Assembly: GCF_008831285.2 (NCBI RefSeq)
Contig: NC_045138.2
Location: 186,001-250,000 of the forward strand
Direction: 5' to 3'
DNA length: 64,000 nucleotides
Origin: Nymphaea colorata
Lineage: Eukaryota; Streptophyta; Magnoliopsida; Nymphaeales; Nymphaeaceae
The position numbers and the translations under genes were made by a program. Positions 25,318 to 34,414 of this stretch are shown here, one piece after another. The notes below the pieces were generated by a model, which was not told the origin of the DNA, did no database searches, and worked only from the letters and a program-made list of their open reading frames with translations. Position 1 is the first letter of the stretch; every line of letters begins with the position of its first letter.

Positions 25318-26449
25318 CAGATACAACTTGTAATTGCAACAGGCTGGTCCAAGGCACAGAACCCTTATATGTTTCCTTTAGTTGCCAGTTGCAGCCTTCC
25401 ATTTCTGATGCACTGATAACACTTTATCATCAATCATGTCATGCAATAATGACTTCAAAATATGTTATCTCATATTGGTTCTTATTACTCTTTCCATCCT
25501 ATTAAATAAACTGTTATCTAGTCATCTTTCTGTAACGATATGAACAGGTCCGGTATGGTAGTCTATTTGCCCTTGGTTTGAACCTGATTGATCCAAGTAC
25601 TTGACATTTTTCTCATCCGAGCTTTCTAGTGCAGTGGCTTGATCGCTGTTCTGATTTTGGGACATTACCAGACGTGGATTTTCTTGTGAAGTCTACTTAT
25701 ATTCTTCTAAGTGAGGAAGAGGAGCATTTTAACCTACTGCACGGCTGAAAGATGAAGCCCCCACCCTTCCCCTCATGCCCAACTCCATTTATGTTCTTGG
25801 AAAAACTGTGGGAACAATATTTGTTTATGCATTCTTTAGTATCAAAAAATAAGAAAATTATCAAGGAAATGGAAATGTGGTATCAATAAAATATTTGATA
25901 ATGCAAATCCTAATCTGCTGAAAATTTTCTCGTTTCCTGAATGTGTCGTGATAAACTGTGATACATTTAAGACCAAAATCCGTCATTCCCACCATCTATT
26001 TGAATTATGATGACATTGATTGTGCAAATTGATGATGCTTTTTGTCTGATCTGATCCCTTGGATATGTTTTCCGTTCTTAATTACTAGGCCACATACTTC
26101 AGATTCAATTAGTTTGGCGAAAAGTTCGATTCTTTTCCTATCAATTTTTTCAAGCAATGCATGCCGTTGATATTCTCAACCTCTTGAGCAAACAGTGGTA
26201 AAAATATGTGATCTAACTTAATGGTTTCTGTTAAATAAGGCATGAAACGCATGTACAAGTCAACAAAACGCACTGGCAGATACAATCGTTTTGCTGAGAC
26301 CCAAGGAGGAGCCTAAAGAACAAATTTCATGCTTCCCACATGGTAACAATGATAATAACAATGAAAATGGTAAATTATTGTTCAGGGCACATTCATACAT
26401 AATCCCTCTCTCTCTCTCTGTGTGATTATCTGTATCTGCTACAAACAGG
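25318..26449. other. Region between the FAM32A-like locus and the YUCCA gene
   Basis: No recognised gene. A stretch at about 25632-25750 on the plus strand reads as a short open segment ending LSEEEEHFNLLHG then a stop. It could be a decayed exon or 3' untranslated sequence, and I do not recognise it. The right part probably holds the 3' untranslated region of the minus-strand YUCCA gene. Confidence 0.5.
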
Positions 26450-29400
26450 TCATGGTTTTGGTTTTGATACACTTTGAGAGGAAAGCACCACACTGATGTC
26501 CTGAGCTACGTTCTTGGCATCCTCAGCTATTCCATAGAACCCCTTCCTTGAAAAGCCAACACAGTAGAGGCCATTGTTGCCCTTCCACTGGCTTGGCCAG
26601 CCCTCTGCAGGGAAGCCACTTTCATCAAAGAAGCCATCATCATCCTGCACAGAGAGAATGAGGAGATAAGCCGACGAACATGGAGCGAGTATCTCGATCG
26701 AATTGCACCTACAAGTCGACGGGATTAAATAAAAAATGAGGAGATGTACATCTGATATGCAGTGCAATCCTATGAAGCTTATGCAGATTTTCTGAGAATT
26801 CTTATGTGGATGCGATCTCCAAGGTTTAAAACTTAGAAATGTGCTTGTATTAGATTATTTGTTGTAGGTGATCTAGAACTTATGAAATTCTTACTAGTAA
26901 AAATCATGTAAATAAGCCCAACCAAATCCAAGAATTCTCTGAAAGATGTAGCCGGCTAAAATCTTTTTTTTCATCTTTACGGGCGGGGGTAAAATGAAAA
27001 GGGAGGGAAAAAACTGTACGGGCGGGTGAAATTTCACCCGCCCGACGTAAAATGCATCAAACGGGGTGAAATTCACCCCGTTTAACATATAAGCGAGCGG
27101 GTGAAATTTCACCCGCTCGAAAGTCCGAGTTCGCAGCTCGGACTTTTGAGCGGGTGAAATTTCACCCGTTCGACCGCTTTCGATTTTTCACTCTCACGCC
27201 CCGAGCATGTGGTCGAGACTGGGGAGGGGTTTCTGCAGCAAAGCACAAATAAATGGAGGGTGAAGCAGGTGGTGTGGGAATAGCACGAAAGAATGGAGGG
27301 TGAAGAGCAGGTGGTGCGGGAAGAGCACGAAGGAATGGAGGGTGAAGCAGGTGGTGCGGGCAGAGCACGAAGGAAGTGACGCCGATTTCATATCCATCTT
27401 AGAAATCGGGGCTTTACTCTTCTCCGTGGCGCTGGATTCTTCCCATTGACACTGCCGATGGCCTACCATAATCAAGGCTTCTCAAATTTCCCCCAATTCA
27501 AAAACCCTAATCACCCTCAAATAGAAACTGCAAAGACTGCTGGAAAAAGCTCGACTCTATGCAGCCGACTCAGAAAACCCCCAAAATCTATGGTGGATTG
27601 AATGCTCCTGGCTTCACTTGATGTGGAGGATCCATGCAAAATCCCCCTACAGGACACAGTGGTGGGGCGAGAATTCGAGACCTTCATATCAAAAGATTAG
27701 AACACGCTGTGCAACGAAGAAGCAGCAGTGGGGTGAAGCAGTAGAGGATGAAAATGAGAAGGGGAAGACGAAGGGAGCCAGCAGAGGATGAAAATGAGAA
27801 GGGGAAAACGAAGGGAGCCAGCAGAGGATGAAGACGACAAGAGGAAGATGAAGGGAGCTCTAACGGGCAGAAAAGTGTTCCAAGGATTTCGATCACACCC
27901 CTCTTGGGTGATTTGATGAAATGCGATTATTGTCCCCAGATACTCCACCATCTGTTATTGTCCACAGAATGCGATGTGGGTGATTCAATACTCCACCATC
28001 TGCACGGGATAACTGGTAACGAACAGCTTGCTTGCAAGGTGTTCGATAAAATGCCCAAAAGAAGCATCGTCTCATGGAATGCCATGATTGATGGTTACTG
28101 CAAAGTTGGTGAGTTCAATGTGTTGCTTGGGATTTTTAATAGTCTGTTGATGGATGATTTGAAGCCCAATTTGAGCAGCTTAGTGAGCATTACAGCTGGT
28201 CAGTGTGGGTTTCCTGACATTGGCAGGTTGATTCATTGCCACAGGATGAAGCTTGGGCATGAGTTATCGTTGGGCATGAGTTGGATTCAGTATTATGTAA
28301 TTTCATTATGAAAATGTACATTGAGCTTGGGCTTGTAGATTGTGCTCACCTCCTATTCAATTAGAAAGATCAGTCGTTTCATGGATACTTTCATTGAAGG
28401 GTACACAAAGATTGGAAATTTTCATCAAGTTTTCTTGCTTTTTACCAGGTTAAATTTTTCCTGTGCATCAAACGAGATTAAATTTACCACGTTAAATTCT
28501 TCGTGTGCATCAAACAAAGCCTCATATTGGAACAAGGAGAAATTTCATCCTGTAAATTTTTCCAGAAAAATTTACCATGGTAAATTTACCATGTTAAATT
28601 TCACCCGACAATCAAACGGGCCCTAAAGAAGAAGATGAGGATATTCCGCAGTGGGCAATTGCCCACATAGACCAACACACACTTTACATTTATATATTGA
28701 AGCTTCATAGCCATTTTCTGATTCACATATTGCTGCTTCTTAGAAGGTTTGTGAATTTGCGAGATTCAGATTTAAGTAAGTTCAAGTGTTTTGCCACATC
28801 TATTCAGATCTAGTTCTGGATTGGACAATGTCCACAAACCAAATCTTCGCCAAGACAAAGAGATAATCATCATACCTTAAGCCAAGCCTTAACTGTGCTC
28901 TTGTACCCAGTTGCAAAGATTATTGCGTCGAACCGGCGAGTGGATCCATTTTCGAACTCCAGATCACTGCTCCGTATGCATTTCACTCCTGGATACACCT
29001 GCAAACAGATTAAAGATCCAGATTTGGTTACTGTTGTTGGTCGTGGATTTTAAGAGCAATTTGGACGTGGACAGATCCAAATCAAATGTTTGGTTTAAAA
29101 TAAATGCATATGAAATCCATTGTTCATTTAAACAGCAGACCTACGAATTCGGAGGGCCCAACACATACTTATTAAGACTCAGGGTTGCTGGGTCTGCTGC
29201 ATCGGGAGTAGCCCTAAAGCCAAACAACCCACTTTGCGTACCATCTTGCCATAATTGTGCCTCCAACTTTGACCTCTTGACCTTGCCGTGACTTGGTCAA
29301 AGTTGGCGCAGGTCAAGGTCCAGTTGACTTGACTTGACTAGGCTCGCAACGTCATGTTCTTGGTGAGATCTATCTTTGAACTTTAGAGAGAGAAACGAGA

Positions 29401-32271: not shown

Positions 32272-33762
32272 GTCCTTGCAAAAAGTACTTTTCAAAATAA
32301 AGTTTGTAGCTAGAAAAAGCATGAAAAGGTTGCAGTAGTGACGTCCTTTATTGCCATTATTAGTCAACTTGGATGTATAGATTCAATTTCTGACAAAAAA
32401 TTCATTGTTACAAAAAATATGTCAGAAACAGTTCTAGACTCTGAAACACTACGTGACTCTAACCCTTGGAAGAGAGCCATACACGTGTTTGGCCGGAACA
32501 TTTGGCCGGAACATGCAACCAAGTTAAAAATCCGGCGACTCAGCCGAGCTATTTGTGAATCAATGAAAATAGTTATTAATTATTTTGAAAAGAATAGGTG
32601 CACTAAATATATAACATAATTAGGAAGATAAAAACCTTAAAAATTAAATTTTCAGAAAAATTTGACGTCAATCTAAAGGCCCCCTTTGAGTAGTGCCAAA
32701 AAATTTTCTTCACACTCCTACTTTGCTTAAGAGTGTGTGTCACGCAACAGCACTATGAAAGAGAAAGCGTCCGCAATAAAAGCTTAATTTATGAACGTCA
32801 GACATCATAGACGGATACACGCGCATTTAGAGAGAGAGAAAACAATATATATATATATATATATAAAAGAGAGAGAGAAAGAGAAAGAGAAATATGGTAA
32901 AGGAAATTGGAAAGAGAGAAGAAGTGGAGAAGCCCAAAAAACTAAAAGGAAAGCAGTTTTAAGAGAGAGAAAGGGAGTGAACCCTCCTCGGAAAAGTATG
33001 CAGGTTAGACCAGCAGAGGGGAAAACAGGAAAAAAAAACGAGAGGATTACGAAAAGGAACGAAAGCGGGAACCAAACCAGAGAATCAGCCGGAAAAATGA
33101 AAAAGGCAAAGAGAGAAAGAGAGAGAGAGAGCAAGCTGGAACGGTATTGGTACCGGGGCGCGAACGACGAGCGACGCTCTGGCATGGTGATTACAGAGAT
33201 CGAGGGCAATCTCCATGCCGGAGTTTCCCGACCCAACGACCAGAACATCTTGGTCCTTGTACGGCACACCGTTCTTATACTGGCTAGAATGCATCACCTC
33301 TCCCGGGAACCCGTCGAGACCGGGCACGTCCGGAACATACCCTTCACTGTTCTCTCCGGTGGCCACCACAAGGAACCTGGCCCGGTACTCCTCGGCCTCG
33401 CCCGTCCGGGTATGCTTTGCCCGGACGGTCCACGCGCCGGCAGCCCGGTCATAAACCGCGGTCTCGACGCACCGGTCGTAGACAGGCCGGAGATCGAACT
33501 GCTGGACGTAGGCGTCGATGTACTTGACGAATTCGTCTTTGGAGAGGTACGTCGGCGCGGTCTTCGGGTAGGGCAGGTGCGGCAACTCGCAGAAAGTCTT
33601 GGCGAGGTGGAGGTGGAGGCGGTCGTAGGAGTACTTCCGCCACAGCGGCACCGAGCAGTCGTCCTTCTCCAGGATGAGGTTGTCGATGGAGAGCTTGTTG
33701 AGGCATGCCGATGCAGAGAGACCCGCTGCACCAGCACCCACTATGATCACCTCCTTCCACAT
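26450..33762 (-). CDS. YUC: YUCCA flavin-containing monooxygenase (auxin biosynthesis), intact, 4 exons
   Basis: It converts indole-3-pyruvate to indole-3-acetic acid with FAD, NADPH and O2, the last step of the main auxin pathway. Exons on the minus strand: 33154-33762, 31670-31903, 28876-28998 and 26450-26644 (stop TGA 26450-26452). All junctions are phase 0 and GT-AG, giving 1161 nt and 386 aa, normal for the family. Motifs: FAD site GAGAAG (9-14), ATGEN (134-138), the FMO signature FPGEVMHSSQY (152-162), NADPH site GSGNSG (177-182), and the C-terminal FATGY (309-313) with a conserved GLYCVGFSRKG in exon 4. MWKEVIIVGAGAAGLSAS with the short length suggests the YUC10/YUC11 branch, whose Arabidopsis members act in seeds (family knowledge). 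Exon 1 is much richer in G+C than exons 2-4. Introns of 1.25, 2.67 and 2.23 kb are full of repeats. A TATA box lies about 65 bp upstream of the ATG. Confidence 0.97.
27019..27172. repeat. Cluster of five consecutive palindromes/hairpins in YUCCA intron 3
   Basis: Within 154 bp: a perfect 26-bp palindrome (27019-27044), a 25-bp palindrome (27059-27083), another perfect 26-bp palindrome (27094-27119), a hairpin with a 10-bp stem and 7-nt loop (stem AAAGTCCGAG, 27120-27129 with 27137-27146), and a near-perfect 25-bp palindrome (27148-27172). Three share the core GGGTGAAATTTCACCC, and the second has GGGGTGAAATTCACCCC. The flanking arms differ (CGGGC, AAAC, CGAGC) and stay complementary, so the pairing itself is what recurs. 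Confidence 0.95.
27252..27373. repeat. Tandem repeat, 3 units of 40-42 bp, in YUCCA intron 3
   Basis: Units at 27252-27291, 27292-27333 and 27334-27373 each begin AATGGAGGGTGAAG and end GAGCACGAAGG or a close variant. Purine-rich on the plus strand. Confidence 0.93.
27741..27860. repeat. Tandem repeat, 3 units of exactly 40 bp, in YUCCA intron 3
   Basis: Units at 27741-27780, 27781-27820 and 27821-27860 each begin G(C/T)AGAGGATGAA and end GAAGGGAGC. The third unit has diverged most. It lies just before the PPR fragment. Confidence 0.93.
27985..28452 (+). pseudogene. Decayed pentatricopeptide repeat (PPR) gene fragment
   Basis: PPR proteins bind organellar RNA. The fragment reads GNEQLACKVFDKMPKRSIVSW, AMIDGYCKVGEFN and LKPNLSSL in one frame up to about 28262. 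Typical PPR sequence (CNFIMKMYIELGLVDCAHLLF) then continues in a second frame, and DTFIEGYTKIGNFHQVFLLF follows in a third. At least two frameshifts and an in-frame stop mean it is not functional. It covers only about four repeats, without an N-terminal targeting peptide or the gene's ends. It is antisense to, and inside intron 3 of, the YUCCA gene, between tandem repeats and an AT-rich palindromic stretch, as if carried in by the composite repeat. Confidence 0.85.
28453..28627. repeat. AT-rich palindromic terminal segment of the intron-3 composite repeat
   Basis: It contains a perfect 20-bp palindrome AAATTTACCATGGTAAATTT (28568-28587), repeated GTGCATCAAAC motifs, and a GC-rich end ATCAAACGGGCCCTAA. 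The string AAATTTCACCCG near its right end (28597) is shared with the palindrome cluster at 27019-27172, and ATGCATCAAACGGGG there resembles ATCAAACGGGCC here. This suggests that both are ends of one element of about 1.6 kb. Confidence 0.55.
29000..31669 (-). other. YUCCA intron 2
   Basis: A 2.7-kb intron with no gene of its own. 29270-29350 is a GACTTG/GGTCAA-rich stretch. 30575-30825 is a diverged copy of the GGGTGGGC MITE family, and 31207-31400 is a copy of the CAGGGGCGGAG family. Confidence 0.75.
31207..31400 (-). mobile_element. CAGGGGCGGAG-family MITE in YUCCA intron 2
   Basis: It begins CCAGGGGCCAAGCC and ends AATTTCTGTCTTTGCCCCTG, with the family's AT-rich body including TTTTGAAAAATGATATTTCAG. 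Flanking 8-mers agree at only 5 of 8 positions, so it is an older insertion. Confidence 0.65.
31999..32202. mobile_element. Tourist/PIF-like MITE in YUCCA intron 1
   Basis: About 204 bp with inverted ends CTTTAAGGGGGCGTTTGAT and (reverse) CTTTAAGGATATTTGAT. The TAA/TTA next to the GGGG ends would fit a 3-bp Tourist-type target site, but that is weak evidence. Confidence 0.55.
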
Positions 33763-34414
33763 CCTCTCTTCTTCTTCCCGATTTTGAGATCGAGCTTGCT
33801 CCTCTGGTTGGCAATGGCATCATCATTTATATAGATGTGGAGGGAGGAGACACCTAACTTTCTCAACCATCATGGTGGACTCATCTGGGGAGTCATTATT
33901 CCATTTTAAATGATAGTTCCTTCCTTCGGTTAATTAAATTTAATTCTCTTTCATACTTTTTCCTTCTGAGATCAAAGGCTATTAGTATCCCACGATTTGA
34001 AACGTGTTTTTTATGATCAAATGGGAAACTGCAGTAAAACCAAAATTAGACGATAAGCTGTTGCCGAAATTCACAAACGTCGGCAGAAAAACAAACAGAA
34101 GGAGAAGAAAAGAAAAGAAACAGTGAAGCTAGACCTTTCCCCCTTTGACTGTAAATCCATTAATTTGAAAGCTAATGGCCATTAACATACATGCATATTA
34201 TATATATAAAGTCAAGGTCTTCCCCTTCCTTTAAGCATGGTTTATTTTCTCAAAGAGAAAAAAAAAAAACAGAAAAATGGTTCTGAAAACTATTAAAAAA
34301 GGCTTTTTATTTGATGATCCAGGGCATAGGCTTTCCTGTTACGTTTCCAAGAGTTGACGCCCGTCGAAAGTGGAAACCTATTATTAAAGTTACAACATTC
34401 GGCTAACTTAGCGT

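Follow-up and report, generated by a model that had tools for sequence, protein, structure and literature searches.

A palindrome block in a YUCCA intron of Nymphaea colorata, probably the subterminal end of a PIF/Harbinger transposon family

The last intron of a YUCCA-like gene in Nymphaea colorata contains a row of five palindromes and hairpins. Do they serve the gene that harbours them, or do they belong to something that came to lie there? An earlier note had described the row and its distinct yet self-complementary arms, and every part of it was confirmed. The window is the whole 64,000-nucleotide stretch of DNA that was analysed, and positions refer to it unless a locus is named.

27019-27044, no strand: P1, CGGGCGGGTGAAATTTCACCCGCCCG, a perfect 26-bp palindrome
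27059-27083, no strand: P2, 12-bp arms AAACGGGG and CCCCGTTT flanking one base
27094-27119, no strand: P3, CGAGCGGGTGAAATTTCACCCGCTCG, a perfect 26-bp palindrome and the left part of a 36-bp foldback
27120-27146, no strand: 10-bp stem, AAAGTCCGAG and CTCGGACTTT, with halves at 27120-27129 and 27137-27146 and a 7-nt loop at 27130-27136, joining P3 to P4
27147-27172, no strand: P4, an inverted copy of P3 with a perfect 18-bp centre and mismatched arms
26645-28875, minus strand: last intron of the YUCCA-like FAD-monooxygenase gene, GT..AG ends, splice sites read

The exon-1 frame of the host gene (33088-33819) matches PF13738 (5.6e-28) and PF00743 (3.3e-18). The later exon frames gave no meaningful Pfam match; these exons are assigned to YUCCA by their likeness to the family.

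The palindrome block and its predicted fold

P3, the stem and P4 together form a single inverted repeat of 36 bp, 94% complementary, with a 7-nt loop. The 10-bp stem, previously listed as a separate hairpin, is present, but it joins P3 and P4 in this one foldback. RNA folding of 26960-27210 gave z-scores of -14.5 for the plus strand (0 of 200 shuffles equally stable) and -11.9 for the minus strand (again no shuffle equally stable). The predicted fold has P3-stem-P4 as one long hairpin with P1 and P2 alongside. With up to 2 mismatches allowed, the window contains three instances of the core GGGTGAAATTTCACCC, each of them an exact match; none of 100 shuffled sequences contained three. Rfam returned no family at gathering score in 26000-29200, the best miRNA match scoring 41.2 bits against a cut-off of 95.

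A genome-wide family with PIF/Harbinger ends

A search of the genome (407.8 Mb, 783 contigs) for the exact 16-base core gave 356 occurrences, and 0 of the reversed control. Among the 40 scored of 350 candidates, the window block was matched on each of the contigs C1-C14; the best four matches besides the window block itself are at 96-99%, and over 234 bp the window block is 99% identical to one on C9. The order terminal repeat, P1, P2, P3, stem, P4 recurs in the loci that were fetched (L numbers), together with shorter or rearranged copies, and the core-to-core spacings are mostly 40, 35 and 53 bases. Many of these copies were sampled via the exact core, so that its conservation is overstated. 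In 58 blocks scored for P1, P3, stem and P4, near-identical copies included, P1 is at its expected place in 54 (at most 6 mismatches), P3 in 50 (at most 5) and P4 in 27 (at most 5); in 34 blocks, both stem halves were detected at some position, each with up to 2 mismatches. In L053, L059 and L071, apparent deletions between cores have left hybrid palindromes with unmatched arms.

The block lies approximately 55 bp inward of a terminal inverted repeat, in non-autonomous copies and coding elements alike. The copy in the YUCCA intron is a relative in which no transposase domain was detected and whose 5' end is damaged.

26981-28623, plus strand: non-autonomous PIF/Harbinger-type element, 1,643 bp, with the palindrome block at its 5' end, inside the last YUCCA intron
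26981-26996, plus strand: damaged 5' end, GGGCGGGGGTAAAATG compared with GGCCCCGTTTGATAGCCGGGGTAAAATG in L046; terminal repeat mostly lost (comparison with L046-L050)
27832-28311, plus strand: PPR-protein-like fragment (PF13041, E = 1.1e-08; PF01535, 3.3e-08)
28568-28587 and 28576-28593, no strand: overlapping 3' subterminal palindromes AAATTTACCATGGTAAATTT and CATGGTAAATTTACCATG, respectively
28611-28623, minus strand: intact 3' terminal inverted repeat ATCAAACGGGCCC, followed by TAA

In alignments over about 1.68 kb, the window element is 95.4% and 95.8% alike to the complete copies L046 and L048; the values for L047 and L050 are 94.6% and 90.6%. It is flanked by TAA on the 3' side and TAC at the damaged 5' side, and an intact terminal repeat fitting the G(N)5GTT motif is present at the 3' end only. 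Given the damage to its 5' end, this copy is probably immobile. Eleven open reading frames of the window element were tested (stop-to-stop, at least 70 amino acids; 28598-28813, which overlaps the edge, was left out); one of the 11 has a Pfam match, to PPR, and no transposase domain was detected among them. Nor was there a PF13359 match at the element among the 150 scored of 307 genome candidates. The PPR stretch, probably a captured gene piece, is common to L046, L047, L048 and L050, and the alignment of L049 lacks the window bases from about 27694 to 27972. Of the two 3' palindromes, both are also in L046 and L049, AAATTTACCATGGTAAATTT alone in L051, and neither in L047, L048 and L050. Both ends of the element are rich in palindromes, with different sequences at the two ends (window; 3' ends of L046, L049 and L051).

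The arms of P2 repeat the sequence ATCAAACGGG of the terminal repeat, which makes P2 a terminal-repeat-like palindrome within the element; its likeness to the terminal repeats across copies was compared by eye. Lengths range from 1,368 to 2,033 bp among the complete copies L046-L051, which have GG(G/C)CCCGTTTGAT-type ends and 3-bp duplications. PIF/Harbinger elements duplicate 3 bp of target, usually TTA or TAA. Short terminal repeats and 3-bp target-site duplications were read by eye in 7 of 7 complete copies: TTA in L046 and L049, CAA in L047, TGA in L048, TAA in L050 and in the coding element L072+L073, and TCA in L051. A lenient automatic scan of end pairs, which tries several pairs per stretch and omitted L017-L020, L023 and L044 as the same elements as L046-L051, found identical 3-bp flanks in 16 pairs and differing flanks in 14. 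Nine of the differing pairs have no real terminal repeat at one end, and five are unmatched as scored (L022, L035, L054, L060, L062). L059, one of the 16 identical pairs, has no real left end, leaving 15 stretches that have both recognisable ends and identical triplets, near-duplicates L012 and L014 among them.

The coding element L072+L073 (C1:4738230-4744576) is 6,347 bp long, has TAA on both sides and is bounded by perfect 16-bp terminal repeats, GGGCCCGTTTGATGGG, that contain the G(N)5GTT motif. It is the one coding element that was read whole, and its reading frames are as follows.

L072 2410-2820: Myb/SANT ORF (Myb_DNA-bind_3; PF12776, 1.6e-15)
L072 4714-5238: DDE_Tnp_4 transposase ORF (PF13359, 7.1e-14)
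L072 5259-5621: RNase H1 N-terminal-domain ORF, downstream of the transposase exon (PF01693, 1.7e-16)

Coding members thus have the DDE_Tnp_4 transposase expected of PIF/Harbinger elements, and the second protein, with its Myb/SANT domain, was found in the one element examined for it, L072. The RNase H1 N-terminal domain would be an unusual cargo for this superfamily. A MULE or hAT identity was set aside once the 3-bp duplications and the DDE_Tnp_4 transposase had been found.

P1, P2 and P3 sit at the same places in L072 as in the window block. The palindromes are located in the YUCCA intron, as the earlier note had described, and given the genome copies they are not specific to the host gene. 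Blocks and transposases also lie together elsewhere, as judged from the 150 PF13359 matches scored of 307 candidates. Contig C1 has 33 core loci, of which 5 are within 6 kb of one of 15 such matches there, compared with a random mean of 0.13, and none of 20000 draws gave as many as 5. With a block from a coding copy as query, the 40 best-scoring blocks were taken from 295 candidates, which biases the sample towards the coding lineage. Eleven of these 40 are within 6.5 kb of a PF13359 match, which in 11 of 11 cases lies inward on the same strand; random placement gave a mean of 0.21 and 3 at most in 2000 draws. No transposase among the 150 scored of 307 candidates lies near the other 29 blocks, which is what one would expect of non-autonomous copies.

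Half-sites GGGTGAAAT (at most 1 mismatch) are concentrated at the element ends. In the coding element there are 13 in about 510 terminal bp (7 at the 5' end, 6 at the 3' end) compared with 4 in about 5,850 interior bp. L046 has 9 at the 5' end, 3 at the 3' end and 0 in the interior (12 compared with 0), and the window copy has 9, 2 and 1, respectively (11 compared with 1).

Taken together, these findings make it probable that the row of five palindromes belongs to a PIF/Harbinger family of Nymphaea colorata as its 5' subterminal block, and that this block serves as a docking platform for the proteins of the family. Each palindrome would consist of two copies of one short site, GGGTGAAAT, set head to head, and the array would be a putative platform near the transposon end on which the Myb/SANT protein, the transposase or both may assemble in end recognition, with P2 repeating the terminal-repeat sequence within the element. 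What had looked like an oddity of one gene would then be a well-defined transposon end, and the palindromes need no function in YUCCA to be explained.

Arm changes between copies

The arms around 93 exact cores are mainly of three kinds, GGGC..GCCC, GAGC..GCTC and AAACG..CGTTT, plus variants; the differing arms of the window block are mainly three old, family-wide palindrome types. We counted positions at which one or both arms differ between copies. The whole-block MAFFT alignment was gappy beyond P3, so each palindrome was located by its position and its best match. Near-identical copies (L014, L026, L027, L029, L031) were dropped from all tables; L005 was omitted because it overlaps L004, and L009 because L072 takes its place. 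The P1 counts also drop L053, L059, L060, L067, L068 and L070; the P3 counts L004, L052, L053, L055, L059, L063, L068 and L070; and the P4 and foldback counts L020 and copies without P4 or P3 at up to 5 mismatches. Expected values are two-sided cells if the sides were independent.

P1, 47 copies: 56 one-sided cells, 5 two-sided (2 complementary), 2.64 expected
P3, 45 copies: 53 one-sided, 17 two-sided (14 complementary), 9.73 expected
P4, 22 copies: 27 one-sided, 3 two-sided (2 complementary), 1.18 expected
Foldback P3 versus P4, 22 copies: 59 one-sided, 10 two-sided (9 complementary), 5.32 expected
P3 versus P4 in direct register (control): 67 one-sided, 6 two-sided (4 the same), 6.68 expected

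Most arm changes affect one side only. What is left is a single symmetric change in P3 and a weak excess in the foldback. All 14 complementary P3 cells are at two pairs. At pair 11/16, G-C is found in 9 copies, the coding copy L072 among them, and with 3.11 two-sided cells expected this is a real excess. As three kinds of terminal repeat occur among these 9 copies, the state extends beyond a single close lineage. At pair 1/26, where the commonest state is a G/G mismatch, T-A accounts for 5 of 8 two-sided cells; with 6.20 expected there is no clear excess. In the coding copy, P2 and P3 share a change from A-T to G-C at the corresponding place, and P1 is unchanged. The excess at P3 11/16 and the two-sided excess between P3 and P4 suggest that there may be some modest maintenance or correction of the foldback.

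Selection for the fold in the YUCCA pre-mRNA, as had been proposed, is weakly supported at best, and we rejected RNA-fold selection in the intron as the main cause because the changes are mostly one-sided. The earlier note had held that plain repeat debris would be indicated if the copies in the genome all carried the same five palindromes with random mismatches in the arms and there were no small RNA. Copies of that kind are largely what we found, but the anatomy of the block recurs, also beside transposase genes, and unrelated repeat debris is therefore rejected in part. Growth of the element by the addition of foldbacks received some support, as P4 is an inverted copy of P3 and both stem halves are detectable in more than half of the scored blocks.

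That arms stay complementary through mutation without selection, by template switching that corrects palindromes or by inverted duplication, appears somewhat unlikely. It would account for the inverted copy of P3 in P4 and for L053, L071 and L059, which look recombined between cores. Inverted duplication would also leave the trace seen in seven blocks (L024-L027, L029, L031, L033), where a half-changed P3 (A..C) is accompanied by a mirror-image P4 (G..T); five of the seven (L025-L027, L029, L031) are near-identical, and L010 has the reverse combination. However, L036 (A..C with A..T) and L030 and L032 (G..C with A..T) break the mirror pattern, and the many one-sided changes left uncorrected in P1 and P3 indicate that correction is infrequent in inserted copies.

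The alternative that the hairpin itself is kept seems unlikely to us. Read-through transcripts of the copies, including the YUCCA pre-mRNA (minus strand), would fold into double-stranded RNA and be processed to 21-24-nt small RNAs that silence the family and possibly YUCCA. The very strong folds on both strands and the near-perfect 36-bp foldback speak for it, and the 9 complementary changes among the 10 two-sided ones in P3-P4 point the same way. P1, however, has no clear covariation (2 complementary changes against 56 one-sided), 24 of the 58 blocks are without one or both stem halves at up to 2 mismatches, and the best miRNA match in Rfam is far below its cut-off. A recruitment of the palindromes as a regulator of the YUCCA gene, through splicing, termination or transcription, fits their intronic position within a transcribed unit, but is very improbable given that the 356 genomic cores and the C9 block show the sequence was not shaped here.

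The reading as a subterminal docking platform would accommodate these observations as follows. P3-stem-P4 would have been born of an inverted duplication, and the arms would differ because the palindrome types are old. Pairing may be kept in active elements either because symmetric sites are needed or because they are homogenised; after insertion, copies such as that in the window would decay, mostly one-sidedly. More tentatively, the ordered array of three cores, an internal terminal-repeat palindrome and a 36-bp foldback could be a symmetric Myb/SANT docking platform in an early-branching flowering plant, grown by inverted duplication, in which arm shifts made in step record coevolution or homogenisation of binding sites.

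Comparison with known systems

The family resembles plant PIF/Harbinger elements (PIF, Pong and Ping, and the MtPH families of Medicago) as described in PMC2213677 and PMC9921582: 3-bp duplications, G(N)5GTT repeats, an ORF1 with a Myb/SANT domain plus a DDE transposase, and non-coding relatives. The G(N)5GTT motif is given in PMC2213677. Subterminal arrays are also described for Medicago MtPH-A6-4, namely 60-bp tandem repeats and a triplicated AAACNNCTTATT motif (PMC2213677). Unlike these, the subterminal repeats of the water lily are near-perfect palindromes with a recurring order and spacing and a 36-bp foldback, and one palindrome repeats the terminal-repeat sequence. As far as our literature search shows, the ordered palindrome array is the unusual part: among titles and abstract openings we found no such array in a PIF/Harbinger element, which is not proof that it is unpublished, and among the papers searched none joined Nymphaea colorata, transposable elements and Harbinger. 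The 356 exact cores and their coding partners constitute a large natural set of symmetric sites for the study of PIF/Harbinger end recognition.

The Ping/mPing system requires two proteins, and internal regions alter mobility (PMC9921582). The authors think sequence-specific sites unlikely in the interiors of mPing and mPong, which counts against a docking-site reading (PMC9921582). A parallel, not a relationship, is offered by piggyBac and piggyBat: their end palindromes are contacted by the C-terminal domains of a transposase dimer, which bind as a pair (PMC11707139). Shared features in that account are palindromes near the transposon end, an A/T-rich centre and several copies at one end (PMC11707139). 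The superfamily and the protein are different, and binding is proven there whereas for the water-lily block it is inferred.

With what is probably a captured host-gene fragment aboard (PPR; PF13041, 27832-28311), the window element resembles the Pack-TYPE transposons of the PIF superfamily, which are non-autonomous and carry gene fragments (PMC8903248). The palindrome block is no part of the Pack-TYPE definition. The window element (1,643 bp) and L046-L051 are longer than typical Tourist-type MITEs, and the window element has the gene fragment in its interior. Tourist-type MITEs such as mPing are non-autonomous PIF/Harbinger relatives with TTA/TAA duplications, below about 600 bp in size. Shorter copies of the family do exist, for example L007 at 646 bp. 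The window element also contains two arrays of three 40-bp tandem repeats, at 27252-27375 and 27739-27858, the first of which is also visible in L017-L020.
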